Source of the DNA: Bacteroidota bacterium
Lineage (GTDB): Bacteria > Bacteroidota > Bacteroidia > Palsa-965
DNA length: 64,000 nucleotides
Assembly (NCBI GenBank): GCA_020402865.1
Contig: JADBYT010000026.1
Span: 5,001-69,000, forward strand
Direction: 5' to 3'
The notes under the pieces are model-generated. The model had not been told where the DNA came from. It made no database searches and worked only from the letters and a program-made list of their open reading frames with translations. Below are positions 4,596-63,275 of the stretch, in pieces (the first letter of the stretch is position 1; each line of letters begins with the position of its first letter). Both the position numbers and the translations under genes were made by a program.

Positions 4596-5825
4596 TCACA
4601 CAATTTTTCTGTTTAGCCATTGTTCTCTAATTATCTCCCTGAATTGCATAAAGTCGCAGTCTGAACCGGGCGTATAGCTTTCGATTTTCTCTTCGGCACC
4701 GATGTAGTCAAAGAATCCGTAATGCCCGGTGTCGTCTGCATCATACATATAACATTGTATGGTTATACAGGTTGGGCCCTGGGGGTTAGGATTAATGAGT
4801 TGGTGAAACTGATTTAGAGTGGGACTAATCCAGGTGATATCGTCTTTGCGAAAAACAGCACCTTCGGGGTTGTAGGTTTTTGCTGCACCGAGATAGGCGT
4901 AGAGATGTACTTTTATTTCGCCATGAAGTACTCTGATCAACGCGTTAGCGCCGGCATGGTTGTGTATGCTGCTGAAACTGCCGGGAGGCCACACTTCCAT
5001 TACATAGGGAATTCCAGGCGACTCACCGCCGTTCTGACCAAGTGTGATGCGGAGATAGATTTGTTTGGAAAGTCCGGCCGGCTTTTTATCGCTTTTATCT
5101 TTCAGTGTTTCATAACACCAGCAGCCGGGGGTGGCAATGTTGTATTCAATGGCTTCTGCAAAATCAGGGAATTCTTCATCATTTAGAATAAATTTTTCCC
5201 CAGCCACATTTTCATACAACTTCTGTCCGATGCTGTTCAGATTTGCTTTGGGCATAAATGCCGACGTAGCGATATCTTTCATGGTCAGCTCATCCATGCC
5301 TTTTACCTTTAGCGGTACATTTTGCTGAACCGGATCGCGGAGCAGGCGCAACGGTTGTATGAATGCCGGATTGAAATTGTAGTCGGAAAGGCTTTGAAGA
5401 AATGCGCCGGTGTCTTTGGACGGGAAAAAATATTCGAACATCATCGTTTCGAGCCGGGCCTCACCTACTCCAAAGCGGTAACAATGATTGTTTGCATCAA
5501 GACTTACCCACCAGAATGCGTTTTTATCTGTAGTTAGTCCTTTGGCTGTTTCGAATAAAACCTGTGTGTTTTGTGCTTTGTAGCGCAGCAGTTTGATAAA
5601 GCCGATATTTAGAATGAGTCGTAATCCTTCGGTGTTATCGGTATTACTGAAAGATAGTTCGGTAGAAAAGCCTGGTGTTACTGGTGTTTTAAATTTGAAG
5701 ATAAGCACACCCTGCCCGGCAATCAGGAATTTATTGGCAGCGCCGGGAGCTGATGCGCGCAGCGTCTGTGGTTGTCTGAAACGTACTTCGCGTGTAATAC
5801 TCTGGTTGGGATTGGAATGTGACAT
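4596..5825 (-). CDS. Cysteine dioxygenase-like cupin protein with N-terminal extension
   Basis: A 409-residue protein. The C-terminal 140 residues are a cupin of cysteine dioxygenase type I: HxH motif in SIHNHAGANALIRVLHGE (His288, His290) and a third ligand candidate His341 in QFHQL, the three-His iron site of that family. Known members oxidise cysteine to cysteine sulfinate with O2. The Cys that forms the Cys-Tyr cofactor in mammalian enzymes is Ala/Gly here, as in many bacterial homologues. The first 260 residues are not part of a normal CDO (about 200 residues in total) and match nothing I recognise. It is predicted to be cytoplasmic, with no signal peptide. Substrate could be another thiol. 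Confidence 0.7.
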   Translation of the reverse strand: MSHSNPNQSITREVRFRQPQTLRASAPGAANKFLIAGQGVLIFKFKTPVTPGFSTELSFSNTDNTEGLRLILNIGFIKLLRYKAQNTQVLFETAKGLTTDKNAFWWVSLDANNHCYRFGVGEARLETMMFEYFFPSKDTGAFLQSLSDYNFNPAFIQPLRLLRDPVQQNVPLKVKGMDELTMKDIATSAFMPKANLNSIGQKLYENVAGEKFILNDEEFPDFAEAIEYNIATPGCWCYETLKDKSDKKPAGLSKQIYLRITLGQNGGESPGIPYVMEVWPPGSFSSIHNHAGANALIRVLHGEIKVHLYAYLGAAKTYNPEGAVFRKDDITWISPTLNQFHQLINPNPQGPTCITIQCYMYDADDTGHYGFFDYIGAEEKIESYTPGSDCDFMQFREIIREQWLNRKIV

Positions 5826-38398: not shown

Positions 38399-39886
38399 CT
38401 ACCGGGCATTCTTAACGCGATAAAGCCTGAACTGACTGGTGCGAAATAGTTGTTCAAATGCAGCCGTATCTTTTAAAGGATAATTTCTGATGGGATCGGT
38501 ATTGAGCGAATTGCCGGTTAAATAGTATGCGGCTTTCAATCGCGTAAGATCATTTTTTATTTCTTCATCGGAAGCTGTCGGGCTGAGCGCAAACGAATGC
38601 GCGTGTGTATAAAGTGCAAGCGCACGTGGTTTATCAAAAGCCACAATACATTTTGCCGGCAACGTAGAATTGATGTAACGAAACAATGAATCGGCCTCTG
38701 ACGTTTGCGGCCCGTCTATTACAACCGCTTCTGTTTTTATTATTTTTTCAATTTCATAATTGTATGAAAACAGAATCAGCGCCCCGGCAATCACGGCAAT
38801 CCATTTGTTTTTTGTAAGGTTAAGGTTTTGCAGATTTTTACGCAGCGCAATTGCGGCAAACAAAAACAGGATGAACAGCACCGGATAAATAAAGCGCATG
38901 CCCTGATGCCCCGAACGATGCAGGAATATCATAAGCAGGTAGCTTGCAGTGTAAATAAGTAAAATTGATTTCCTGTCTTTCTGAAAAGTATAACACATGC
39001 CCAGTATAGCGAAAACCAACAGCGACGAGGAGGTAAGAATACCAATTGACGAGTATTCCTTCATGTCATACCACCTGAACATCCACGATAGCTGGTGTAC
39101 GGTGTAGGAAAAATGGTCGTTCACCATTTTCCAGTATTCAGCCTGCTGGCCGGCAAGTTTATAATTCACCACAGTGGGGAAAAGTGTGTCGATGGCGAAA
39201 TACACTGCAAGGCCGGCCAGCAGCGCAATAAAAGTGTGCTGATGCAGTTTGAACGAAAACTGGCGCCAGTGTTTATCAAGGAAAAAACGGTGAAGGACAA
39301 ACACAAATAATAGCGGTAAACCAGCCATGCGTATATGAATAGCCAGCGCAATCAGTACCACAATCAATATGTTTTTTAACAGCGTTTGTTTTTGAAGCAT
39401 CAGCCAGATGCTCAGCATGGAGAGAAACGTAAAAGGCAGATCAGAAACAATTTCGGTTTTAAACTGCAGAAGCAGAGGGTTGTAGGCAAGTATAATTGTG
39501 ATTATCCATGCCGACACAAAAGATAATGACGTACGCAACAAAAGAAACCCCGTAAAGCAGCACAATACCCAGAACATCGTGAGGTATAAATTCAAGCTTG
39601 CCACATCAAGTCCGTTGAAATAGATAAGCGGGGCAAGCAACAGCGGAAAGCCGGGCGGATAAGCCTGCGGGCCGAGGTCGGGATTATTCTCGTTGAAAAT
39701 ATAACCGGTTTCGTTTTGCGATTGTCCGGTTACTATATTTTTGGCCTGATGCAGATATTGTGCAAAATCATCGCCCCAGTCGCAGCTTGTTTTGATGTTT
39801 ATGAAAAACAACGGCACTAAAGAGAGCAGCACAACACAATATCCGATAAACCGGTTTCTGTTGAATGTGGTGAAAAAGGATGACAT
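38399..39886 (-). CDS. GT-C-type integral membrane glycosyltransferase-like protein
   Basis: 495 residues with about 10-12 membrane segments. Features of the ArnT/PMT-like GT-C fold: an acidic pair in the first periplasmic loop (CDWGDDFAQYL), YPPGFPLLLAP, a second acidic loop site (KTEIVSDLPF) and AIHIRMAGLPLL, plus a soluble C-terminal domain of about 100 residues. Such enzymes use polyprenyl-phosphate sugars, which a Dpm1-like enzyme at 33116-33847 could supply; this link is inferred. A TACTTTTA element at 39918-39925 may be the promoter. Confidence 0.7.
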   Translation of the reverse strand: MSSFFTTFNRNRFIGYCVVLLSLVPLFFINIKTSCDWGDDFAQYLHQAKNIVTGQSQNETGYIFNENNPDLGPQAYPPGFPLLLAPLIYFNGLDVASLNLYLTMFWVLCCFTGFLLLRTSLSFVSAWIITIILAYNPLLLQFKTEIVSDLPFTFLSMLSIWLMLQKQTLLKNILIVVLIALAIHIRMAGLPLLFVFVLHRFFLDKHWRQFSFKLHQHTFIALLAGLAVYFAIDTLFPTVVNYKLAGQQAEYWKMVNDHFSYTVHQLSWMFRWYDMKEYSSIGILTSSSLLVFAILGMCYTFQKDRKSILLIYTASYLLMIFLHRSGHQGMRFIYPVLFILFLFAAIALRKNLQNLNLTKNKWIAVIAGALILFSYNYEIEKIIKTEAVVIDGPQTSEADSLFRYINSTLPAKCIVAFDKPRALALYTHAHSFALSPTASDEEIKNDLTRLKAAYYLTGNSLNTDPIRNYPLKDTAAFEQLFRTSQFRLYRVKNAR

Positions 39887-51178: not shown

Positions 51179-51524
51179 ATACATGAATTATCACTATGGT
51201 ATGTCTGAAGTAAATCGGTGAATAAATAATAAATATTCAATGTTTTCAAGTGATTACCTGATTGAAAACAGATGTTATGATAAATAGTATGTGTGTTTAT
51301 GAACAGATTTAGTTATTAATATTAATGGTATATACAGCGATTTATCGGGATTATTCATTTGTAAATAATTGCAAGATGGTAGGATGGTAGTTTGTAGAAT
51401 AATAATTATTTATCTGAATTGTGCTTTTGAAGTAAATTATATAGTGTGTTAATATTCGTGTAACGATAGGGTGATTTGGGGCTGCTGTTTGCCTGCGGAG
51501 TAATTACCGGGAGCAAAAAATGTG

Positions 51525-51532
51525 TATTTTCA
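51525..51532 (+). promoter_or_regulatory. Candidate -7 element TATTTTCA
   Basis: Two mismatches to TAnnTTTG; predicted leader to the ATG at 51554 is about 15 nt. Confidence 0.3.
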
Positions 51533-51553
51533 ACTAAACACCTCAATTCAGAA

Positions 51554-53275
51554 ATGGTTAAAACAGCATTTCGTATATGTGTGCTGCTTGCACTGGTTGT
51601 GATAACCGGTGCCGGGCGCTGCCGTGGCGGCAAAGGGAACAACGATTTACTGGTTCGCCTGTACTCCAGAGCATACGTAGAGCCACAGCCTTTGCGTCAG
51701 CCGGCCGAGCCGGTTTATGAACCGCTTCTGGGCAACTGGAACCTGATGAACGACAGGCCGTTGCGCATCAGCCGCTCAACGTCAAATACTTACGAAATGC
51801 GTTTCGTGAGTCCGTACCTCAGCGAGCGCGATGTGGTGTATGAAGCGCATATCACCACGCTGGGCGGTGTGCGCTACCTGAACATGAAGAGTTACATGGA
51901 TAACTACATGTTCTTTCGTGTGCCGGCCATTCAACATCCCGAAGCTGTGCTGTATATGCTCGCCGAAGCGGCAGCTGAATACAAAGGAGAAATGCCACTT
52001 ACCACTTTTCTGCAAAACAATGCACGGGGTATTGATACGGCTTCGTACTGGGAAAAATTAGTAATGCGGCGTATTACAGCCGGTGGCGCTGATTCGATGC
52101 AGCGTGAACTGCATCGCAGCGAAGTGAACTCAATACGCTACTATACGCTTTTTGCGGAGCGCTATCCGGCCGACGCCGGGCTTATGAAGCTGAAAAAAGA
52201 AGTGGCACGCAAAGAAATTGCCGAAGCCACTACCTTTAAAGACCTTGTGGCTGTGGCCGAATTTGATGCCGCCTTTGCCGATAGCGTGCGCACATTGGCA
52301 CGGCGGCGTTGCACAAGTGTGAATTGGTGCATCGACTATATCAGTTACTACAAAAATTCGCCCGATCAGGCCGCCATTGCCGATACGGCTTTTTTGCTTC
52401 AGAAAACAACCGAAGAGGGTTTGCGCCTGCTCGAATTTTTTCCGCAGCACCCCAAAGCAGCGCGGGCTGCATTTATAATTGCCGATGCCGAATTGGCTGC
52501 ACAACCGGAACCGGGAGAGGTTGATGATTTTGAGTTGCTGTATGCCCGCACACCGGCAGTATTAAGTGCAGGCAGGCGCATCGTGTTAACCGAATGGCTA
52601 ACACTCGACTCGACTTGTTTCTTTGCCAGTTCGCACCTGCTTACTTCTGCCGGAAAGCTGCAGCTCGACAAATTGCTTGCCTATATTTCTCCCGCATCTG
52701 GCTCACAGCCCGAAAGCAACGATTTGTTTGCCATACTCTACGCACCCGATCATATTGCAGGCCGTACGCAATATACTTCGCTGCATCTGGCGGCCAATCG
52801 CTGCAAGGCAGTAAACGATTATCTCGCCCCGAAACTTCCGGCCGGAATGAAAATTCATTTCATTCCCGGTATCCACGACAGCGGGGGCGAAAACGGAATT
52901 ACTCAAAATCAACGCGACTATGGTCGTTTCACCATTCGCAGTAAAACTGCCGAACCCTGGCGAGCCGGCTTCTTCAAATACACAATCAATAATTCCGGTG
53001 CGCAGGCTGTGCCAAACGGCGAAAGAGACTACCCTGCCGCCAAACTCATCCGCCTGCCCGAAATTGAACAACAGATTTTGCAGGAATTCACCGCCGAGGC
53101 CGCCCGCTACCGCAGCAAACAACCCTACCGGAAAGTGATCCCGCCCAACTACTGGAAACCGGAGTATGCCACCGAACAGCCCGGCTTTGCCGAGTTTCAG
53201 CAGCAGTTGAAGGCGGCAGCCAAAAAGGCGAAGGTGAAAAAGAAACGGGTAGTGTTGTTTTGTGTGGAGGAGTGA
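51554..53275 (+). CDS. Exported protein of unknown function
   Basis: 573 residues. An N-terminal hydrophobic signal (ICVLLALVVITGAG) is followed by RCRGG, which is not a clear lipobox. The middle is helical. Residues of about 370-450 (LLTSAGKLQLDKLLAYI, LHLAANRCKAVNDYLAPKL, DYGRFTIRS) recall the order of an OmpA-like peptidoglycan-binding domain but lack its full motif. The C-terminus is Lys-rich (KAAAKKAKVKKKRVV). No family recognised. ATG 51554 was chosen because it gives the signal peptide; a longer frame from 51476 does not. Confidence 0.55.
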   Translation: MVKTAFRICVLLALVVITGAGRCRGGKGNNDLLVRLYSRAYVEPQPLRQPAEPVYEPLLGNWNLMNDRPLRISRSTSNTYEMRFVSPYLSERDVVYEAHITTLGGVRYLNMKSYMDNYMFFRVPAIQHPEAVLYMLAEAAAEYKGEMPLTTFLQNNARGIDTASYWEKLVMRRITAGGADSMQRELHRSEVNSIRYYTLFAERYPADAGLMKLKKEVARKEIAEATTFKDLVAVAEFDAAFADSVRTLARRRCTSVNWCIDYISYYKNSPDQAAIADTAFLLQKTTEEGLRLLEFFPQHPKAARAAFIIADAELAAQPEPGEVDDFELLYARTPAVLSAGRRIVLTEWLTLDSTCFFASSHLLTSAGKLQLDKLLAYISPASGSQPESNDLFAILYAPDHIAGRTQYTSLHLAANRCKAVNDYLAPKLPAGMKIHFIPGIHDSGGENGITQNQRDYGRFTIRSKTAEPWRAGFFKYTINNSGAQAVPNGERDYPAAKLIRLPEIEQQILQEFTAEAARYRSKQPYRKVIPPNYWKPEYATEQPGFAEFQQQLKAAAKKAKVKKKRVVLFCVEE

Positions 53276-53352: not shown

Positions 53353-54699
53353 GTGCAGCTTCTTTTTCATCTCTGGCTCAAGCATACGCTTCACTTTCTG
53401 GTAGGCTTCTTTTACCGCTACTCGCGCCGCCTGCATGTTACCGGTCACGAAAACGTGCCGCACGGCGTGCCGTTGCTGCTGTGTTCCAATCACCCCAATG
53501 CGTTTATGGATGCCATAATTGTGGGCATGACCGTGAAACGCCGCTCGTGGTTTCTGGTGCGCAGCGATGTGTTCCGGAAAAAATGGATGGCCGCCGCGTT
53601 TGAGTTTATCGGGATGCTGCCCATTTACCGCCTGCAGGAAGGGGTGGAAAATCTGGCAAAGAACGACGAAACCTTTGCGCGCTGCACGGCCATGCTTGAG
53701 CGTAAAAAGGCCATCATTATTTTCTCCGAAGGCCTTTGTATTCAGGAGCGCCGCCTGCGCAAACTGAAAAAAGGTACCGCACGTATTGCTTTTACGGCCG
53801 AGGAAGCAAACAACTTTCAGCTGGGTCTGCAAATTGTGCCAGTGGGCATCAACTATTCTTCCACACCGTGGAAATTCCGCACCACCGTGCATGTGCGTTT
53901 TGGTAAACCGTTTGCCGCAGCCGATTATGCCGAGGCTTACCGCGAGTCGCCGGCAAAAGCGGTAAACCAATTTACGCGCGAACTCGAAACGCGCATGGCA
54001 AAGGAAATTGTAATCATCGAAAATTCTGCCGATGATGAACTTGTGGCCGGACTCGAAGAAATGTTTCTGCGCGAACGCACCCGCGAAGCCGGCGGCAATC
54101 CTTCAAACCAATGCGACACACATTTAACTACACTTAAAATTGCAGGCTTTGTGAATGAACTTTCGCGCACACAACCCGAAAAGGCCGAAGCACTGCGCAT
54201 TCAGGTGAAGGATTATTTACAACGGCTTAAAGACCTCGGCATCCGCGACTGGAACCTGCGTCCTTCGTCGATCGAAAAAATGGGTGGCGGCGATGTACTT
54301 GGCGATGCGGCTTTCTTTACACTCGGCTTTCCGGTGTGGGTGTTTGGTGTAATTACCAATTACATTCCCTACAAAGTCCCGTATCTCCTCACGCAAAAAA
54401 TTGTACGCAATATTGAGTGGCATGCTTCCATCAATGCCACAGTGGGCGCGTTTCTCTGGCTCATCTGCTGGGGGCTCGAAAGTCTGGCGGTAGCTTTGTT
54501 GTTTCGCAACTGGTGGCTGCTTGCTGCCTTTATGGTGGCCATGCCGCTGAGCGGTATGTTTGCGCAGTATTATTATGTGCGCATCCGCCGCTCGAACGGA
54601 AAATCGGCACTGCTTCGGGCTATGCGAAAGAACAAAGCCGAAGTGCAGGCGCTGGTTGATTTACGCAACGAAATTGACCTTGAAACGGCCTTTTCATAA
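53353..54699 (+). CDS. PlsC-type 1-acyl-glycerol-3-phosphate acyltransferase-like protein
   Basis: 448 residues from a GTG start. Acyltransferase motif I is SNHPNAFMD (His47, Asp53, one residue wider than the usual HX4D), then FLVRSDVFRKKW, MLPIYRLQEG and the motif III-type IIFSEGLCIQE. The C-terminal part has two or three membrane helices (TVGAFLWLICWGLESLAVALL, WLLAAFMVAMPLSGMF) that normal PlsC proteins lack. It probably acylates lysophospholipids at the inner membrane. It is followed by the gldN cluster 132 bases later. Confidence 0.82.
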   Translation: MQLLFHLWLKHTLHFLVGFFYRYSRRLHVTGHENVPHGVPLLLCSNHPNAFMDAIIVGMTVKRRSWFLVRSDVFRKKWMAAAFEFIGMLPIYRLQEGVENLAKNDETFARCTAMLERKKAIIIFSEGLCIQERRLRKLKKGTARIAFTAEEANNFQLGLQIVPVGINYSSTPWKFRTTVHVRFGKPFAAADYAEAYRESPAKAVNQFTRELETRMAKEIVIIENSADDELVAGLEEMFLRERTREAGGNPSNQCDTHLTTLKIAGFVNELSRTQPEKAEALRIQVKDYLQRLKDLGIRDWNLRPSSIEKMGGGDVLGDAAFFTLGFPVWVFGVITNYIPYKVPYLLTQKIVRNIEWHASINATVGAFLWLICWGLESLAVALLFRNWWLLAAFMVAMPLSGMFAQYYYVRIRRSNGKSALLRAMRKNKAEVQALVDLRNEIDLETAFS

Positions 54700-54831: not shown

Positions 54832-55728
54832 ATGAACGCACAAGCCTTCGTTATTCCAGCCGGCCGCAGCATTGCTGCATTTTATCTGCTCGTTGTTTTT
54901 CTGCTTACCTCGCTTTCGCTGCATGCGCAGGTGCTTATGCCCGATAATTTTTATGTGCGCGAAAATGTGCAGAACAAGCGTGCCGTACCTTATGTACACG
55001 AACGCGAAGCCGATATTATGTGGTCGAAACGCGTGTGGCGCACGATTGATTTACGCGAGAAATTCAATCATCCGCTCTATTATCCCGAAACACAAATAAA
55101 CAACCGCCGCAGTTTGTTTGATGTGGTGAAACGCGCCATCATTGCCGGCGATCTTACCGCTTTCGATAATGCCGCACTCGACGATGAGTTTACCACGCCC
55201 ATGTCGCCCGCCACCACGCGCGAACTGTTTAACGCGGGCTACTGGACGGTGCAGGAAGATCCCAATGAGCCGGGTACGTATGACAGTGTGTGGGTAGCGC
55301 AACCGCTTGAATCGCGTATGATTAAAGCGTGGTGGGTGAAAGAAGACTGGTTCTGGGACCGTCAGCGCGGAGTGATGGATGTGCGCATTGTGGGCATTTG
55401 TCCGTTGCAGGAAAAACTTGCTCCGGCTGTGGAAGGAAGCAGCGAAAGCGGTGAAGTGATTGGCTACAAGGCACTGTTCTGGATTCATTTTGATCAGCTT
55501 CGTCCGATCCTTGCCAAAGAAGAATGCTACAACACCCGCAACGATGCCCAGCGTTTGAGCTACGACGATGTATTCCGCAAACGCATGTTCAGCAGCTACA
55601 TTCATAAAGAGTCGAATGTATTTGACCGGAGTGTGGGCAGCTATGCCACAGGACTGGAAGTACAGTTTGAATCAGAGCGTATCAAGAACGATATTTTCAT
55701 CAACGAGCACGATTACTGGCATCTTTAA
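54832..55728 (+). CDS. gldN: GldN/PorN-like T9SS and gliding component, copy 1
   Basis: 298 residues. Signal peptide ends ...SLSLHAQ. Conserved blocks shared by all three copies: ADIMWSKRVWRTIDLREKFN, HPLYYPET, SLFDVV, AWWVKEDWFWDRQRGVMDVR, ICPLQ, LFWIHFDQLRP, LSYDDVFRKRMFSSYIHKES. In studied T9SS, GldN/PorN forms a periplasmic ring with the lipoprotein GldK/PorK and contacts GldM. Here no gldK, gldL or gldM is present. F. johnsoniae has a similar adjacent pair, gldN and gldO. A terminator lies directly after this gene. Confidence 0.88.
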   Translation: MNAQAFVIPAGRSIAAFYLLVVFLLTSLSLHAQVLMPDNFYVRENVQNKRAVPYVHEREADIMWSKRVWRTIDLREKFNHPLYYPETQINNRRSLFDVVKRAIIAGDLTAFDNAALDDEFTTPMSPATTRELFNAGYWTVQEDPNEPGTYDSVWVAQPLESRMIKAWWVKEDWFWDRQRGVMDVRIVGICPLQEKLAPAVEGSSESGEVIGYKALFWIHFDQLRPILAKEECYNTRNDAQRLSYDDVFRKRMFSSYIHKESNVFDRSVGSYATGLEVQFESERIKNDIFINEHDYWHL

Positions 55729-55734
55729 TCCCGG

Positions 55735-55770
55735 CAGCCGGGGCGGTACATACTTCCCCGGCTGTTTTTT
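55735..55770 (+). terminator. Terminator between gldN copies 1 and 2
   Basis: Stem CAGCCGGGG (55735-55743) with CCCCGGCTG (55756-55764), 12-base loop, T6 tract. It begins 7 bases after the copy 1 stop. Confidence 0.85.
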
Positions 55771-55800
55771 CCGTTTTTCATTACTTAACCTTTCTCCCCG

Positions 55801-56616
55801 ATGAAAATAGCTGCTGTACTTTCCCTGTTCGGTTTTGTAATGCTTTGCAATCGTTCTGAAGCGCAAACTCATGCGTATGACGGACCTTCGCAAATGCAGC
55901 ATCGTAAAAGCGTGAGTTGTTACCCGACCACGGATAAAGACCTGATGTGGGCCAAGCGGGTGTGGCGCACAATGGATCTGCGCGAGAAATTCAATCACCC
56001 GCTTTATTTCCCGGAAACACCGGTGCAGGGCCGCAGCAGTTTGTTTGATGCCATTAAAGCGGGAATGCTGAGCGGTGAAATAAACGGGTACGATGTAAAT
56101 GATAACGGGGTGATGTTTTCGGTGGAGCTGAGTAAGGGTCAGGTGCAGCAAATTTTCAATGGCAGTTCAGAGTCGGTGCGGAACAATACGCTTGAGCCGT
56201 TTGAGGATGCGCCGGTTACTTCGGCCGATGTAAAAGCCTGGTGGATGATGGAAGACTGGTTTTTTGATAAACAGCGCAGTGTAATGGATGTGCGTATCAG
56301 AGGCATGTGTCCGCTTCGCGAACGTAAAACAGCAACCGGGCAGGTGAGAGGTTATCAGCCTATGTTCTGGCTGTATTTCGATCAGGTGCGTCCGGTGCTT
56401 GTGCGCTTTGCATATTTCAATTCAAAGAATGATGCGTCAGGTTTAAGTTATGATGATGTGTTTCAGAAGCGCATGTTTTCAAGCTACATTCACAAGGAAC
56501 TGAATATGTACAGTTCAGGCACTGAAATGGTGGTGAAAGGTATGGATGCGCAATTAGAGGCTGATCGTATCCGTATTGGTCTCTCAACGATGGAGCACGA
56601 TTTCTGGAATTACTGA
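55801..56616 (+). CDS. gldN: GldN/PorN-like protein, copy 2
   Basis: 271 residues, the shortest copy. Signal peptide (LSLFGFVMLCNRSEA). It keeps DLMWAKRVWRTMDLREKFN, HPLYFPET, SLFDAI, AWWMMEDWFFDKQRSVMDVR, MCPLRE, MFWLYFDQVRP and LSYDDVFQKRMFSSYIHKEL, but the middle (EINGYDVNDNGVMFSVELSK) is shorter than in copies 1 and 3, which both have AFDN-A-DDEFTT there. The gene sits between two terminator-like hairpins, so it either has its own promoter in the 30 bases upstream or depends on read-through. Confidence 0.85.
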   Translation: MKIAAVLSLFGFVMLCNRSEAQTHAYDGPSQMQHRKSVSCYPTTDKDLMWAKRVWRTMDLREKFNHPLYFPETPVQGRSSLFDAIKAGMLSGEINGYDVNDNGVMFSVELSKGQVQQIFNGSSESVRNNTLEPFEDAPVTSADVKAWWMMEDWFFDKQRSVMDVRIRGMCPLRERKTATGQVRGYQPMFWLYFDQVRPVLVRFAYFNSKNDASGLSYDDVFQKRMFSSYIHKELNMYSSGTEMVVKGMDAQLEADRIRIGLSTMEHDFWNY

Positions 56617-56643
56617 AAGAGATCGTGTCTTTTGCGGCGGCCG

Positions 56644-56681
56644 GTGCCTGCTTCTTTTTTTGGGAGCAGGCCCGGTTGTTT
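56644..56681 (+). terminator. Terminator-like hairpin between gldN copies 2 and 3
   Basis: Stem GCCTGCT (56644-56650) with AGCAGGC (56663-56669), loop containing T7, then GGTTGTTTTTTT. The stem is only 7 bp, so activity is less certain than at the first one. Confidence 0.6.
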
Positions 56682-56831
56682 TTTTGGGGGGATGAAAAAA
56701 ACTTTTTCCATTCACACACCAATTCCGGCACGATATTCGTTTATTATAAACAAACACCCGATATAAACCGCGCATGAAGCACTTGTTTACCAGTTCAAAC
56801 TACCTAACCATTGTGTTTGAGCGTTTGTGGT

Positions 56832-57785
56832 ATGAAAAGCAATCGTTCTGTATTCAGGCCGTCGCGGGTTTTTACGTGGCACGAAAAGTGGCGGCCGTTT
56901 GCGCATGAGCTCCGGTTTGCGCTCCGCGTAATTTTGTTTTTTGCCTTACTCTTTCTCGCTTCGCACCTTTGGGCGCAATCACCTCCGCCCTGCGATCCGC
57001 CTGCGCCCTCACGCATTATCTCGCCCGAAACTACCGGTGCTACTGCCACACGCCGCCCGGCTCCGTTGCCGTACGTGCGTGAAGCGGATGTAATGTGGTC
57101 GAAACGGGTGTGGCGTACGCTCGACATGCGCGAGAAAATGAATCATCCGTATTACTATCCCGAAACACCGCACAACGGACTGATGAGTCTTTTTGATGTG
57201 GTGCGCAGCGGGGTGCTGGGCGGCTGCATCACTGCATTCGACAATCCGGCCATTGATGATGAGTTTACCACCAAAATGAGCGCCGAAGCTGTATCGGGAC
57301 TGCTGAACAGTGTGGATTATCTGGAAGTGGAAGATCCGAATAATCCGGGCACCTATCGCATTGATACGATACGCACCACACTGCAAACATCAGAAATTAT
57401 GGCGTGGTGGGTAAAGGAAGACTGGTTTTTCGATAAGCAGCGCAGTGTAATGGATGTGCGCATCATCGGGCTTTGTCCGCTGCAGGCCAAGCGCGATCCG
57501 CAAACGGGCGAAGTAATGGGTTACAAGCCGTTATTCTGGGTGTATTATCCGCAATTGCGCCCGCTGCTGGTGAAGCATGAAGTATTTCTCGGGCAAAATT
57601 TTTTCCCGCGCCTGAGTTTTGATGATATATTACTGAAGCGTTTTTTCAGCAGTTATGTCCACAAGGAATCAAATGTGTACGACCGCACCATAAACGGCTA
57701 CACACAAGGGCTTGATGCGATGTATGAATCGGAACGCGTAAAGGAAACAATACGAAATTACGAAAGCGATTTGTGGCATTACTGA
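56832..57785 (+). CDS. gldN: GldN/PorN-like protein, copy 3
   Basis: 317 residues, the longest copy. A long charged N-terminus (about 30 residues) precedes the hydrophobic signal core (VILFFALLFLASHLWAQ), followed by a Pro-rich stretch. Conserved blocks: ADVMWSKRVWRTLDMREKMN, HPYYYPET, SLFDVV, AWWVKEDWFFDKQRSVMDVR, LCPLQ, LFWVYYPQLRP, LSFDDILLKRFFSSYVHKES. It shares AFDNPAIDDEFTT with copy 1, so copies 1 and 3 look closer. ATG 56832 is preferred to an in-frame TTG at 56811. Confidence 0.87.
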   Translation: MKSNRSVFRPSRVFTWHEKWRPFAHELRFALRVILFFALLFLASHLWAQSPPPCDPPAPSRIISPETTGATATRRPAPLPYVREADVMWSKRVWRTLDMREKMNHPYYYPETPHNGLMSLFDVVRSGVLGGCITAFDNPAIDDEFTTKMSAEAVSGLLNSVDYLEVEDPNNPGTYRIDTIRTTLQTSEIMAWWVKEDWFFDKQRSVMDVRIIGLCPLQAKRDPQTGEVMGYKPLFWVYYPQLRPLLVKHEVFLGQNFFPRLSFDDILLKRFFSSYVHKESNVYDRTINGYTQGLDAMYESERVKETIRNYESDLWHY

Positions 57786-57892: not shown

Positions 57893-58564
57893 TTAGTCAA
57901 TAGCCCGTTGCAGAAAACTCAGGAACGGGTGCATGGCTTTGCAGGCAGCAATGGCGTTTTTGGTGAAGTTTTTATGCATCACTTCTTCATCGCTGAAGAG
58001 GTGTGAGAGGGTGAAGCTTTTGTATTTCAAAAACTCCACAGCCGGATTATCGGGTGTGTAGCCTTTGGGCGGACGGCTGAGTGTGTAGCCTTCGTCGTTG
58101 TCTAAGCCGGCGTAGAATTTTTTAAAGTTTTTGTCTTTCAGCAGTGCTTTAAATTCGTCGAGGTTATAGTCAATTTCCTGACGGATTTTTGCAAGCTGCG
58201 GCGCTTCGGGCATCCACATGCCACCGGCTACAAAGCTGTTTCCGTCGGGCTGAATGTGTATGTAGTAGCCGGGCGTTGGCGCCATTCGTCCGCCAGGATT
58301 GATGCTTGCGCCGAGATTATTTTTGTACGGTGCTTTGTTTGCCGAAAAGCGCACATCGCGGTAAATGCGAAACATGGCTTTGCGGGCTTCAAGATCATCG
58401 CCAATTCGTTTATCGAATGTGCGGATGCCGGCAATAATTTCGGCCACATTGGCTTCTACATTGTCTTTAGCGGTGGTATAGTGGGCTTTGTTTTTTTCAA
58501 ACCACTCGCGGTTGTTGTTTTTATTGAGCTTTTTAAGAAAGCTGAGTGTATCAGTGTGTATCAT
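57893..58564 (-). CDS. DUF2461-family protein
   Basis: 223 residues, cytoplasmic. Seen: LSFLKKLNKNNNREWFEKNK, FRIYRDVRFSANKAPYKNNL, PGYYIHIQPDGNSFVAGGMW and KGYTPDNPAVEFLKYKSF, the pattern of the DUF2461 (TIGR02453) family. Function unknown in all members. No operon partner is clear; the AI-2E transporter gene lies upstream (41-base gap) in the same direction and may share a transcript. Confidence 0.88.
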   Translation of the reverse strand: MIHTDTLSFLKKLNKNNNREWFEKNKAHYTTAKDNVEANVAEIIAGIRTFDKRIGDDLEARKAMFRIYRDVRFSANKAPYKNNLGASINPGGRMAPTPGYYIHIQPDGNSFVAGGMWMPEAPQLAKIRQEIDYNLDEFKALLKDKNFKKFYAGLDNDEGYTLSRPPKGYTPDNPAVEFLKYKSFTLSHLFSDEEVMHKNFTKNAIAACKAMHPFLSFLQRAID

Positions 58565-58605: not shown

Positions 58606-59751
58606 TTATTCCTTTTCATGGTTACCGGGTTCGGCTTCCGGGTTGGTTATTTCTTCAAGATCGTCGGTAAGGCGCTGCACGAACTGATAGCCGCTGAAGA
58701 ATTCTTTCGCAATAATTCGAAGAACCGTGTATGCCGGAACCGCTACCACCATACCGCCAATACCCGCTAATGTGCCTGCAATAAGAATTACGATGAAAAT
58801 TTCTATCGGATGCGCTTTTACCGAATTGGAGAATATGTAGGGCTGCACCAGAAACCCGTCGGTAAGATTCATGGCTACAAACACCGCCATAATTTTTCCC
58901 GCAAGCGGCAGCATGCCTGTGTAGAAATCGAGATTAAGATTGGTGGTAATGCCGATAATTACTGCAAATGCACCTCCGATTAATGGACCTACGTACGGAA
59001 TAATATTCATTACACCGGCAAACAACCCGATAATAATAGCATTTCGTACACCCAGCAAAGCCATACCGATGCTTACAAAAGTGGCTACAAACAGAATGTC
59101 GAGCAGCACGCCGGTAAAGTATTTCGTGAGCAGGATGCGCGTATCGCCGAATACGTTATACATCTGCTGTTTGTATTTTTTAGGCACAAGCAGCATCAGC
59201 GTATCGAAAATTGCGGTGCCGTCTTTCAGAAAAAAGAACGTGAGGAATGAAATCACAAAGAAGCCGGTAATAAGGCTTCCGAGCGTAGAGAAAACAGAGT
59301 TAGCCAGTGTTGACACTTTGGTAAGGCCCAGAAATGCGGTAATCTGTTGCTGTACATACTGCTCAAGCGTTTGTTGTTCAGCACCAGTATTCTGCTGCAC
59401 CTGTGAAAAGGCCGTTTCGAGTTGGGTGAGTGGTTCGTGCAGTGCTTTTTGCAACTGGTTGCTGTCAACTGTGGAAATAATTTTTACTTCATCAATAATT
59501 AACGGAATAAAAATTGCCACAAACGCACCGATTACTGCATACACAGAGAACAGCAGAATTAAAGCCCTGAGCGAACGCGGAATTTTCTTGTTTTTGAGTT
59601 TGATCCGTTCCAGGTATTTATCGAGCGGAGTTACAACCATAGCAATTACTGCTGCAATAATTACGTACAGCAAAATTGAGCGCAGGTACCAGCAGGCTGC
59701 AATTACAAGTGCGGCAATGAGAAATATAAAAAGAGGATGTTTTCGGATCAC
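58606..59751 (-). CDS. AI-2E/PerM-family transporter
   Basis: 381 residues with about eight membrane helices (FIFLIAALVIAACWYL, LYVIIAAVIAMVVTPLDKYL, VITGFFVISFLTFFFLKD). Family marks: FLTFFFLKDG, GLFAGVMNIIPYVGPLIGG, and the C-terminal VQPYIFSNSVKAHPIEIFIVILIAG segment with GGMVVAVPAYTVLR. Members export small molecules or act as Na+/H+ antiporters; transport of autoinducer-2 is shown for only a few. The start is GTG 59751; no in-frame ATG is nearby. A TATCTTCA element is at 59787-59794. Confidence 0.88.
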   Translation of the reverse strand: MIRKHPLFIFLIAALVIAACWYLRSILLYVIIAAVIAMVVTPLDKYLERIKLKNKKIPRSLRALILLFSVYAVIGAFVAIFIPLIIDEVKIISTVDSNQLQKALHEPLTQLETAFSQVQQNTGAEQQTLEQYVQQQITAFLGLTKVSTLANSVFSTLGSLITGFFVISFLTFFFLKDGTAIFDTLMLLVPKKYKQQMYNVFGDTRILLTKYFTGVLLDILFVATFVSIGMALLGVRNAIIIGLFAGVMNIIPYVGPLIGGAFAVIIGITTNLNLDFYTGMLPLAGKIMAVFVAMNLTDGFLVQPYIFSNSVKAHPIEIFIVILIAGTLAGIGGMVVAVPAYTVLRIIAKEFFSGYQFVQRLTDDLEEITNPEAEPGNHEKE

Positions 59752-61325: not shown

Positions 61326-63275
61326 ATGATTTCAGTAAACAACATCACCGTAAGTTTCGGCGGCACTACGCTGTACGACGATATCTCTTTCCTCATCAAC
61401 ACCCGCGACCGTATTGGTCTGGCGGGCCGCAACGGTGCAGGAAAATCAACCATGCTGCGCATCATTGCCGGCGAGCAGCGCCCCACCACAGGCGAAGTGG
61501 CCCGCCCCAACGAATGCACCATCGGCTATCTGGCACAGGATCTTGTGGCCACGCTGGGCAAAACCGTGTTCGACGAAACCGCTACTGCTTTCCGCGAACT
61601 CCGCGACCTTGAAGCGCGTGTGGAATTTATCGGCAACGAACTCGCTACACGCACTGATTACGAAAGCGATGCGTACATGAACCTCATTCATGAACTCACC
61701 GAAGCCAACGAAAGGCTGCACCTGCTCGGCGGCGAGTCGATGGATGCGCAGATTGAACAAACGCTTTTCGGTCTCGGCTTCGAGCGCAAGGATATGAATC
61801 GCCTCACCGACGAGTTCAGCGGCGGCTGGCGTATGCGCATTGAGCTTGCAAAAATTCTGCTGCAAAAGCCGAATGTGCTGCTGCTCGACGAGCCCACTAA
61901 CCACCTTGATATCGAATCCATTCAATGGCTCGAAAATTTCCTGAAAGATTATTACGGCGCGGTTGTGCTCGTATCGCACGATAAAGCGTTTCTCGATAAT
62001 ATTACTACACGTACCATCGAAATTTCGCTCGGTAAGGCATTCGATTACAAAGCCAACTATTCGCGCTACCTCGAACTTCGCAAAGAACGCCGTGATACGC
62101 AAATGGCTGCGGCCAAAAACCAGCAGAAGTTTATTGATAAAACCGAGCAGCTTATTGATAAGTATCGTGCCAAAGCCAACAAGGCTTCGTTTGCGCAGTC
62201 GCTCATTAAAAAGCTCGACAAGCTTGAAATTATTGAGGTTGACGATGAAGACAACCTTTCTATGCGTTTCCGTTTTCCGCCTGCGCCCCGTTCGGGCAAA
62301 GTAGTGGTGGAGGCGCAGCGCGCAAAAAAAATGTATGGCGAGAAAACCATCTTCGCCGATGTGGATGTGATGATTGAACGCGGCGATCGGATTGCACTTG
62401 TGGGGCGTAACGGCGAAGGTAAGTCCACTTTCAGCCGCCTCATTATGGGAGAAGCCGCTACCGATGGTTTTGTAAACGTAGGCCACAACGTAAACATCGG
62501 CTATTTTGCGCAGGATGATGCCGATACGCTGGACGGCGACAAAACCGTGTTTGATACCATCGACGAAATTGCGCTTGGCGATGTACGCAAGCAGGTGCGC
62601 GGCATTCTCGGGTCGTTTCTGTTCAGCGGCGATACCGTGGACAAAAAAGTAAAAGTGCTTTCGGGCGGCGAACGCACACGCCTTGCACTTTGCCGTTTGA
62701 TGCTGCAGCCCTACAACCTGCTGCTGCTCGACGAACCTACCAACCACCTTGACATGCGCTCGAAAGAAGTGCTTAAAGGTGCGCTGATGAATTACGACGG
62801 TACGCTCATTGTGGTATCACACGACCGCGATTTTCTTCAGGGACTTACCGGCAAGGTGCTTGAGTTCAGAAGTGGCCGTGTAAAAGAATACATCGGCGAT
62901 GTGTACGACTTCCTGCGCGACAGGAAGATCGACAACTTTGCAGCGCTTGAGAAGAAAGACAATCCCTTTGTAAGCCAAACGCCCAAAGCCGAAACACCCA
63001 AGGCCGAAGCCGGCGAAAATGCCGCTCAGCGCGAGCAGAAGAAACTGCAGGAAAAAGAACTCCGCCAGATCAAAACCCGCGTAGCCCGTCTTGAAGAAGA
63101 AATCGGTAAACTCGAAGCCGAAATAAAAGTATTCGACGAGCAGCTTGCTGATCCCGAAAAGTATCAGAAACTCATTAACGATAAAGCTGCATTTGCCGAA
63201 TACGAGGCGAAACGCAAGCGGCTGGATAATGTGATGAACGAGTGGGAAGCGGCTTTGCTGGAACTGGAAGGGTAA
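61326..63275 (+). CDS. ABC-F-family ATPase (Uup/YdiF group)
   Basis: 649 residues, two ABC domains and no membrane part. First domain: GLAGRNGAGKSTMLRI, signature EFSGGWRMRIELAK, Walker B LLLDEPTNHLDIES. A charged linker of about 70 residues follows. Second domain: ALVGRNGEGKSTFSRL, LSGGERTRLALCRL, LLLDEPTNHLDMRS. The C-terminal 90 residues are a coiled coil (KTRVARLEEEIGKLEAEIKV). ABC-F proteins act on ribosomes, either as translation factors or in antibiotic protection; nothing in the sequence decides which. It has a strong terminator downstream. Confidence 0.94.
   Translation: MISVNNITVSFGGTTLYDDISFLINTRDRIGLAGRNGAGKSTMLRIIAGEQRPTTGEVARPNECTIGYLAQDLVATLGKTVFDETATAFRELRDLEARVEFIGNELATRTDYESDAYMNLIHELTEANERLHLLGGESMDAQIEQTLFGLGFERKDMNRLTDEFSGGWRMRIELAKILLQKPNVLLLDEPTNHLDIESIQWLENFLKDYYGAVVLVSHDKAFLDNITTRTIEISLGKAFDYKANYSRYLELRKERRDTQMAAAKNQQKFIDKTEQLIDKYRAKANKASFAQSLIKKLDKLEIIEVDDEDNLSMRFRFPPAPRSGKVVVEAQRAKKMYGEKTIFADVDVMIERGDRIALVGRNGEGKSTFSRLIMGEAATDGFVNVGHNVNIGYFAQDDADTLDGDKTVFDTIDEIALGDVRKQVRGILGSFLFSGDTVDKKVKVLSGGERTRLALCRLMLQPYNLLLLDEPTNHLDMRSKEVLKGALMNYDGTLIVVSHDRDFLQGLTGKVLEFRSGRVKEYIGDVYDFLRDRKIDNFAALEKKDNPFVSQTPKAETPKAEAGENAAQREQKKLQEKELRQIKTRVARLEEEIGKLEAEIKVFDEQLADPEKYQKLINDKAAFAEYEAKRKRLDNVMNEWEAALLELEG

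Follow-up and report, generated by a model that had tools for sequence, protein, structure and literature searches.

Three gldN paralogues in the window

The window, by which we mean the whole 64,000-nucleotide stretch analyzed here, spans positions 5001 to 69000 of contig C26 in the genome of an uncultured Bacteroidota bacterium (G000; 4.89-Mb assembly, 49 contigs, estimated completeness of 100%). Three gldN-like open reading frames (ORFs) follow one another on its forward strand at the coordinates given in the initial annotation: N1 (54832..55728, 298 aa), N2 (55801..56616, 271 aa), and N3 (56811..57785, up to 324 aa). The sequence blocks typical of GldN are present in all three, and their assignment as gldN paralogues was borne out by family searches, in which N1, N2, and N3 scored 193.4, 174.1, and 198.1 bits against TIGR03523, above the GldN equivalog cutoff of 85.9 bits, and 223, 197, and 224 bits against PF19841. 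Each ORF is intact and has a signal-like N terminus. N1 to N3 are genuine GldN/PorN paralogues and are not the only gldN genes of the cell. The reported absence of the DDEF stretch from the second copy was also evident in the alignment, where N2 has a short deletion at that place. The ORF of N3 opens with a TTG codon at 56811, and the true start is probably a later ATG at about 56832. In N3, as in its orthologues, the N-terminal stretch ahead of the signal-like hydrophobic helix is unusually long (window 56811-56985); the helix occupies residues 24 to 52 in an AF2 model of N3 (pLDDT 80). N0, the gldM-adjacent copy of the same genome described below, differs from N3 in this respect.

An acyltransferase gene (53353..54699, + strand; PF01553, 68.6 bits) lies immediately upstream of N1. 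Farther upstream, window positions 51476-53275 encode a 599-aa protein with a signal-like N terminus, for which searches of Pfam and NCBIfam gave no match. The right flank begins with a DUF2461 gene (57893..58564, − strand; PF09365, 240.6 bits) and a gene for an AI-2E family transporter (58606..59751, − strand; PF01594, 155.9 bits, and synteny) and includes a gene for a two-domain ABC ATPase (61326..63275, + strand), which was recognized by synteny and assigned to the ABC-F type by reading of the sequence. The two T9SS cargo proteins noted earlier in the window carry type A sorting domains (TIGR04183, 40.5 and 38.6 bits). The Bacteroidota-type promoter pattern TTTG-N17-23-TAnnTTTG was matched once across the window (at 39715), which is below the chance expectation, and nowhere near the triplet.

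Canonical operon and origin of the split locus

As the initial annotation had reported, gldK, gldL, and gldM are absent from the surroundings of the triplet: none is among the ORFs listed for window positions 48 to 64 kb, and genome-wide family searches placed the sole gldK and gldL genes above the family cutoffs, together with two gldM genes, on contigs C8 and C12. Contig C8 carries a complete porP-gldK-gldL-gldM1-gldN0 operon, read directly from the contig, in which the fourth GldN match of the genome (N0) is the gene directly after gldM. This position is the usual one for GldN/PorN, though not a strict requirement, and none of the window copies occupies it. The presence of gldN0 on C8 rules out N1 to N3 as the only gldN genes of the genome; gldKLM has its own gldN. 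The genome also encodes GldJ (464.6 bits). A further 603-aa protein on contig C7 (L187:6398-8209) contains a domain like that of formylglycine-generating enzyme and scores 147 bits against the GldK model (cutoff, 350), which makes it the third GldK-like protein of the genome besides GldK and GldJ.

Four other genomes of the same genus (G002, G003, G004, and G005) have the gene order porP-gldKLM-N0-N1-N3, followed by the DUF2461, AI-2E, and ABC-F genes. In these intact operons gldM and N0 are about 25 bp apart, and N0 and N1 about 120 to 150 bp. The operons of the four sister genomes are followed by the right flank seen in the window, and the triplet is therefore the end portion of an ancestral porP-gldK-gldL-gldM-gldN0-gldN1-gldN3 operon that was cut between N0 and N1. 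The locus had been presented as a stand-alone triplet; this synteny rules out a new stand-alone locus. The simplest reading is that a rearrangement took away the gldKLM-N0 stretch, which is now on C8, and that N1 and N3 stayed in place. In a search of the genus, the best matches of the window acyltransferase in G001 and G004 were found on the contig of the gld operon, about 30 to 55 kb away, and its gene appears to mark the point of rearrangement. The tail of gldN genes is partly parted from the gldKLM operon in three genomes of the genus; in G006, gldKLM-N0 and N1-N3 are on different contigs, and in G001, gldKLM-N0-N1 is separate from N3. The flank of DUF2461, AI-2E, and ABC-F genes also occurs at many loci of other lineages.

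Phylogeny and selection

Across all seven genomes of the genus, N0, N1, and N3 form separate clades (support of 93/75, 99/95, and 100/98, respectively), and each of these orthologue groups has conserved residues specific to it. In this genus the three are conserved GldN subunits, each distinct from the others. N2 is the product of a duplication of N1; it is sister to N1 (SH-aLRT of 95), evolves fast, sits on a long branch, and is confined to the window genome among the genus. N1 to N3 are 38 to 62% identical to each other and to N0 (39 to 44% for N2 and the other copies), which rules out the earlier alternative of recent, identical duplicates beside a gldKLM cluster lacking gldN. Mean identity inside the groups is 76% for N0, 57% for N1, and 58% for N3. 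The corresponding mean dN values are 0.18, 0.38, and 0.37, so N1 and N3 evolve about twice as fast as N0 by this measure, with most dS values saturated. The dN/dS values of N1 and N3 are low, with synonymous sites near saturation. On the basis of the group identities, and of dN set against near-saturated dS, all three genes are under purifying selection, which is looser for N1 and N3 than for N0.

The N3 lineage may extend beyond the genus. The second gldN copies of 12 genomes of another lineage group with N3 and its relative in G007 (82/92, and 96/96 for the same split in a later tree test), and derived residues, such as an R-to-L change at Porphyromonas gingivalis position 75, are shared by N3 and these second copies. 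Most of the 12 genomes also have a right flank of the window type. We therefore favor a duplication shared with another clade, in which case the N3 lineage would be older than the family; an independent origin of the N3-like copies was not rejected by the AU test (p = 0.15).

Duplication of gldN as such is already known from GldO of Flavobacterium johnsoniae, likewise a gldN paralogue beside gldN in gldKLMN, and N1 and N3 are so placed in the sister genomes. We found such duplication to be common in the class, and many of the duplications look lineage specific. The present case differs from GldO in that there are up to three extra copies, the orthologue groups are maintained over the long term, the locus is split, and the genome has a second GldM. 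A GldKN/O complex has been spoken of in the literature (PMC9127263, PMC8986121, and PMC10202324). Searches of the open-access literature found no account of conserved gldN triplets, of recurrent loop loss in GldN, or of an old second GldM.

Conservation of ring contacts

GldN/PorN belongs to the T9SS core (TIGR03523 and PF19841; PDB 7PVH, 9OTS, and 9MZU). The structure of the PorKN ring names the PorN residues that touch PorK, PorN, and PorM (PMC12421860); the PorN numbering of that work corresponds to the PDB chain minus 21, as derived from an alignment. The set of PorK contacts used here comprised W47, W154, the loop F156-D162, D220, and the C-terminal Phe and Trp. W47, W154, and D220 are identical in N0, N1, N2, and N3, as is N236, a PorN-PorN contact, and the F156-D162 loop is nearly the same in all four copies. 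The terminal Trp is present throughout, its equivalence to W278 being judged from spacing, and the C-terminal Phe (F271 by spacing) is present in N0 and N1 and gone from N2 and N3. N2 also lacks the D-R pair after N236, beside a residue that was cross-linked to PorM. An AF2 model of N2 (pLDDT 85) matched PorN (9mzu_B) with a Z score of 19.4 over 185 aligned residues, and the next, unrelated matches had a Z score of 2.6, so the predicted fold of N2 is still PorN-like. N1 to N3 resemble the known family in sequence and in PorK-contact residues, and the N2 model resembles it in fold; they differ from canonical GldN, which in this genome is N0 on C8, in being extra copies, in being split from gldKLM, and in the loss or alteration of an E-R-R loop motif.

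Recurrent loss of the E-R-R motif in extra copies

We asked of each alignment column whether a residue conserved in GldN encoded next to gldM is lost in extra copies. The analysis compared 96 gldM-adjacent GldN sequences with 66 extra copies, most of them assigned to 25 duplication groups that were drawn by hand from trees and are not each a proven separate duplication. Losses were counted in 13 independent pairs taken from a tree built without the loop. Three mutually adjacent residues, E229, R230, and R231 (N0 numbering; P. gingivalis positions 214 to 216), ranked highest for loss among the 97 conserved columns, being lost in 10.4, 7.8, and 9.6 of the 13 pairs. Averaged over the 97 conserved columns the loss was 2.0, and the 39 best-conserved ones averaged 1.0. 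Control columns were flat (1.0 for R180 and 0.6 for D235, the equivalent of D220), and most conserved columns show no excess of loss. Next after E-R-R came the neighboring E220, D227, and T232 and parts of the N-terminal segment.

The extra copies from these approximately 25 gldN duplications retain most PorK-contact residues, and W47 and N236 are lost in 0 of the 25 groups. The E-R-R motif lies 4 to 6 residues ahead of the PorK-contacting D220 (P. gingivalis numbering) and, placed by residue order, should fall in PorN-PorN contact region 8. Relaxed constraint could account for part of the excess of E-R-R losses.

A second GldM protein

The genome encodes a second, full-length GldM (GldM2) of 533 aa on contig C12 (L186:8750-10351; C12:12749-14350). 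GldM2 scores 338.6 bits against TIGR03517 (cutoff, 180) and shares with GldM/PorM the transmembrane helix and all four domains (PF12081, PF21601, PF21602, and PF12080, each above cutoff). It falls in a clade of 15 sequences from several families (SH-aLRT of 100), a placement that identifies it as an old paralogue of GldM. Unlike known GldM/PorM, GldM2 is encoded alone, amid T9SS cargo genes of both type A and type B sorting, and has a strongly diverged, fast-changing docking domain. Identity between GldM2 and GldM1 is 75% in residues 1 to 40, which include the transmembrane helix, and 22 to 29% in residues 441 to 550, the GldN-docking domain. Identity in the docking domain is 69 to 81% among GldM1 proteins and 26 to 42% among GldM2 proteins; given this difference between species, GldM2 may bind something other than GldN. 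The flanks of gldM2, which encode a Ycf48-like protein and a choice-of-anchor-L cargo protein, reappear in part of the genus.

An extra GldM tends to go with an extra GldN. Among other genomes of the class, sampled at one per family and counted by hand, 10 have both, 9 have only an extra GldN, 2 have only an extra GldM, and 22 have neither (Fisher p = 0.002, uncorrected for phylogeny). Lineage-specific duplications of GldM were found in G012, G022, G023, G042, G048, and L148, in all cases with an extra GldN. The exceptions are G016 and G057, which have an extra GldM and one strong GldN match.

Interpretation

The T9SS ring is usually pictured as a uniform GldK/GldN ring driven by one type of GldLM motor. 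For the present genome we favor, with moderate confidence, a different arrangement, in which N1, N3, and perhaps N2 are specialized subunits of a mixed GldKN ring. After export to the periplasm, these proteins would dock on the one GldK ring as ordinary GldN does, giving either a heterotypic GldKN ring or an N layer that varies with condition. Their terminal anchors and the loop that precedes the PorK-contacting Asp are not those of N0, and we propose that these differences change neighbor contacts, ring geometry, or motor docking. GldM2, whose conserved transmembrane helix would let it join the sole GldL pentamer and whose docking domain is very different, would be the likeliest partner of the specialized GldN copies. 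The outcome would be a T9SS/gliding motor with two types of shaft and several types of rim. Alternative or mixed rings had been suggested in the initial annotation; retained ring-contact residues together with diverged surfaces make that suggestion plausible, with a mechanism that we infer from sequence.

In favor of a mixed ring are the presence of one GldK and one GldL alongside several GldN and two GldM proteins, the three orthologue groups under purifying selection with PorK contacts kept and E-R-R recurrently lost, and the co-occurrence of extra GldM with extra GldN. In two-hybrid assays, GldM of F. johnsoniae contacts GldN as well as GldO (PMC8986121). Observations that argue against a mixed ring include the weak PorN-PorN contacts reported in PMC12421860, the divergence of the GldM2 docking domain between species, and the occurrence in G016 and G057 of an extra GldM beside one strong GldN match.

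The same unbroken PorK-contact core would be expected if the extra copies were interchangeable back-ups that provide redundancy or dosage, as has been proposed for GldO of F. johnsoniae, with permissive loops left to drift. According to Rhodes 2010, cited in PMC9127263, GldO and GldN are partly redundant, and the frequency and apparent lineage specificity of gldN duplications also suit such a role. We nevertheless consider plain redundancy unlikely, since the three groups persist with their own conserved residues in 7/7 genomes of the genus, one loop is lost repeatedly in separate duplications, and extra GldM accompanies extra GldN. Retention of GldK contacts in the extra copies also weighs against a second ring devoted to gliding rather than secretion, in which extra GldN would pair with GldJ or with the 603-aa GldK-like protein of C7, and GldM2 with the shared GldL would form the motor. 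GldJ, a GldK paralogue, does take part in an outer membrane complex (PMC10202324), both GldJ and GldM2 are available in this genome, and where a genome lacks a good GldJ match it has one strong GldN, the divergent G012 excepted. Nearly all sampled genomes have GldJ, however, many of them with a single GldN, so its presence is ruled out as the cause of gldN duplication, and a separate gliding ring seems improbable to us. It is very improbable that the copies, N2 foremost, are heading for loss or a role outside the motor, with separation from gldKLM reflecting lost cofunction. The divergence and long branch of N2, its lack of the DDEF stretch, the D-R pair, and the C-terminal Phe, and the parting of the gldN tail from the operon in three genomes of the genus would fit such a fate; every ORF is nonetheless intact with a signal-like N terminus, dN/dS is low for N1 and N3, and N2 keeps the PorK-contact residues and a PorN-like model.

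The mixed-ring reading might extend beyond this genus. Many Bacteroidota may combine a single GldK ring and a single GldL stator with several specialized GldN subunits in the rim and with two GldM shafts that have different docking heads, the GldN proteins without E-R-R occupying a subset of the approximately 33 positions or serving the alternative shaft; we put this forward tentatively, as somewhat less than an even prospect. For the coupling of about 18 motor pillars to about 33 ring subunits, a lineage that maintains three or four distinct GldN and two GldM proteins but one GldK and one GldL offers a natural experiment. The recurrent loss of E-R-R in separate duplications singles out one surface for mutation. 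GldO, treated in the papers cited here as a feature of Flavobacterium, falls into a pattern of gldN duplication that is common in the class, and extra GldN proteins, often found with a second GldM, suggest motors built from mixed, specialized parts.

Other GldN-like arrangements in related genomes

Several further arrangements of GldN-like genes were seen in related genomes. A divergent GldN-like gene overlaps an upstream GldK-like gene by a few bases at L042:3866-5772 (G003) and L060:6332-8145 (G029); the GldN-like products score 121 and 192 bits, respectively, against the GldN model built here, and these pairs may form a miniature K-N module separate from the T9SS operon. L039 and L044 carry related GldN-like genes that are also divergent. 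A GldN-like domain is joined to MORN_2 repeats in a single protein at L076:3698-5440 (G035) and L042:4765-5772 (G003), with the MORN match of L042 below the curated cutoff. Proteins of 470 to 490 aa encoded at L074:746-3704 and L075:1035-2513 (G042) contain two GldN-like stretches (PF19841) per chain, and several of their genes stand in tandem. Finally, the locus L069:6383-14700 (G048) has the order porP-gldK-gldL-gldM-gldN-gldM-gldN, in which the gldM-gldN pair is repeated in tandem.
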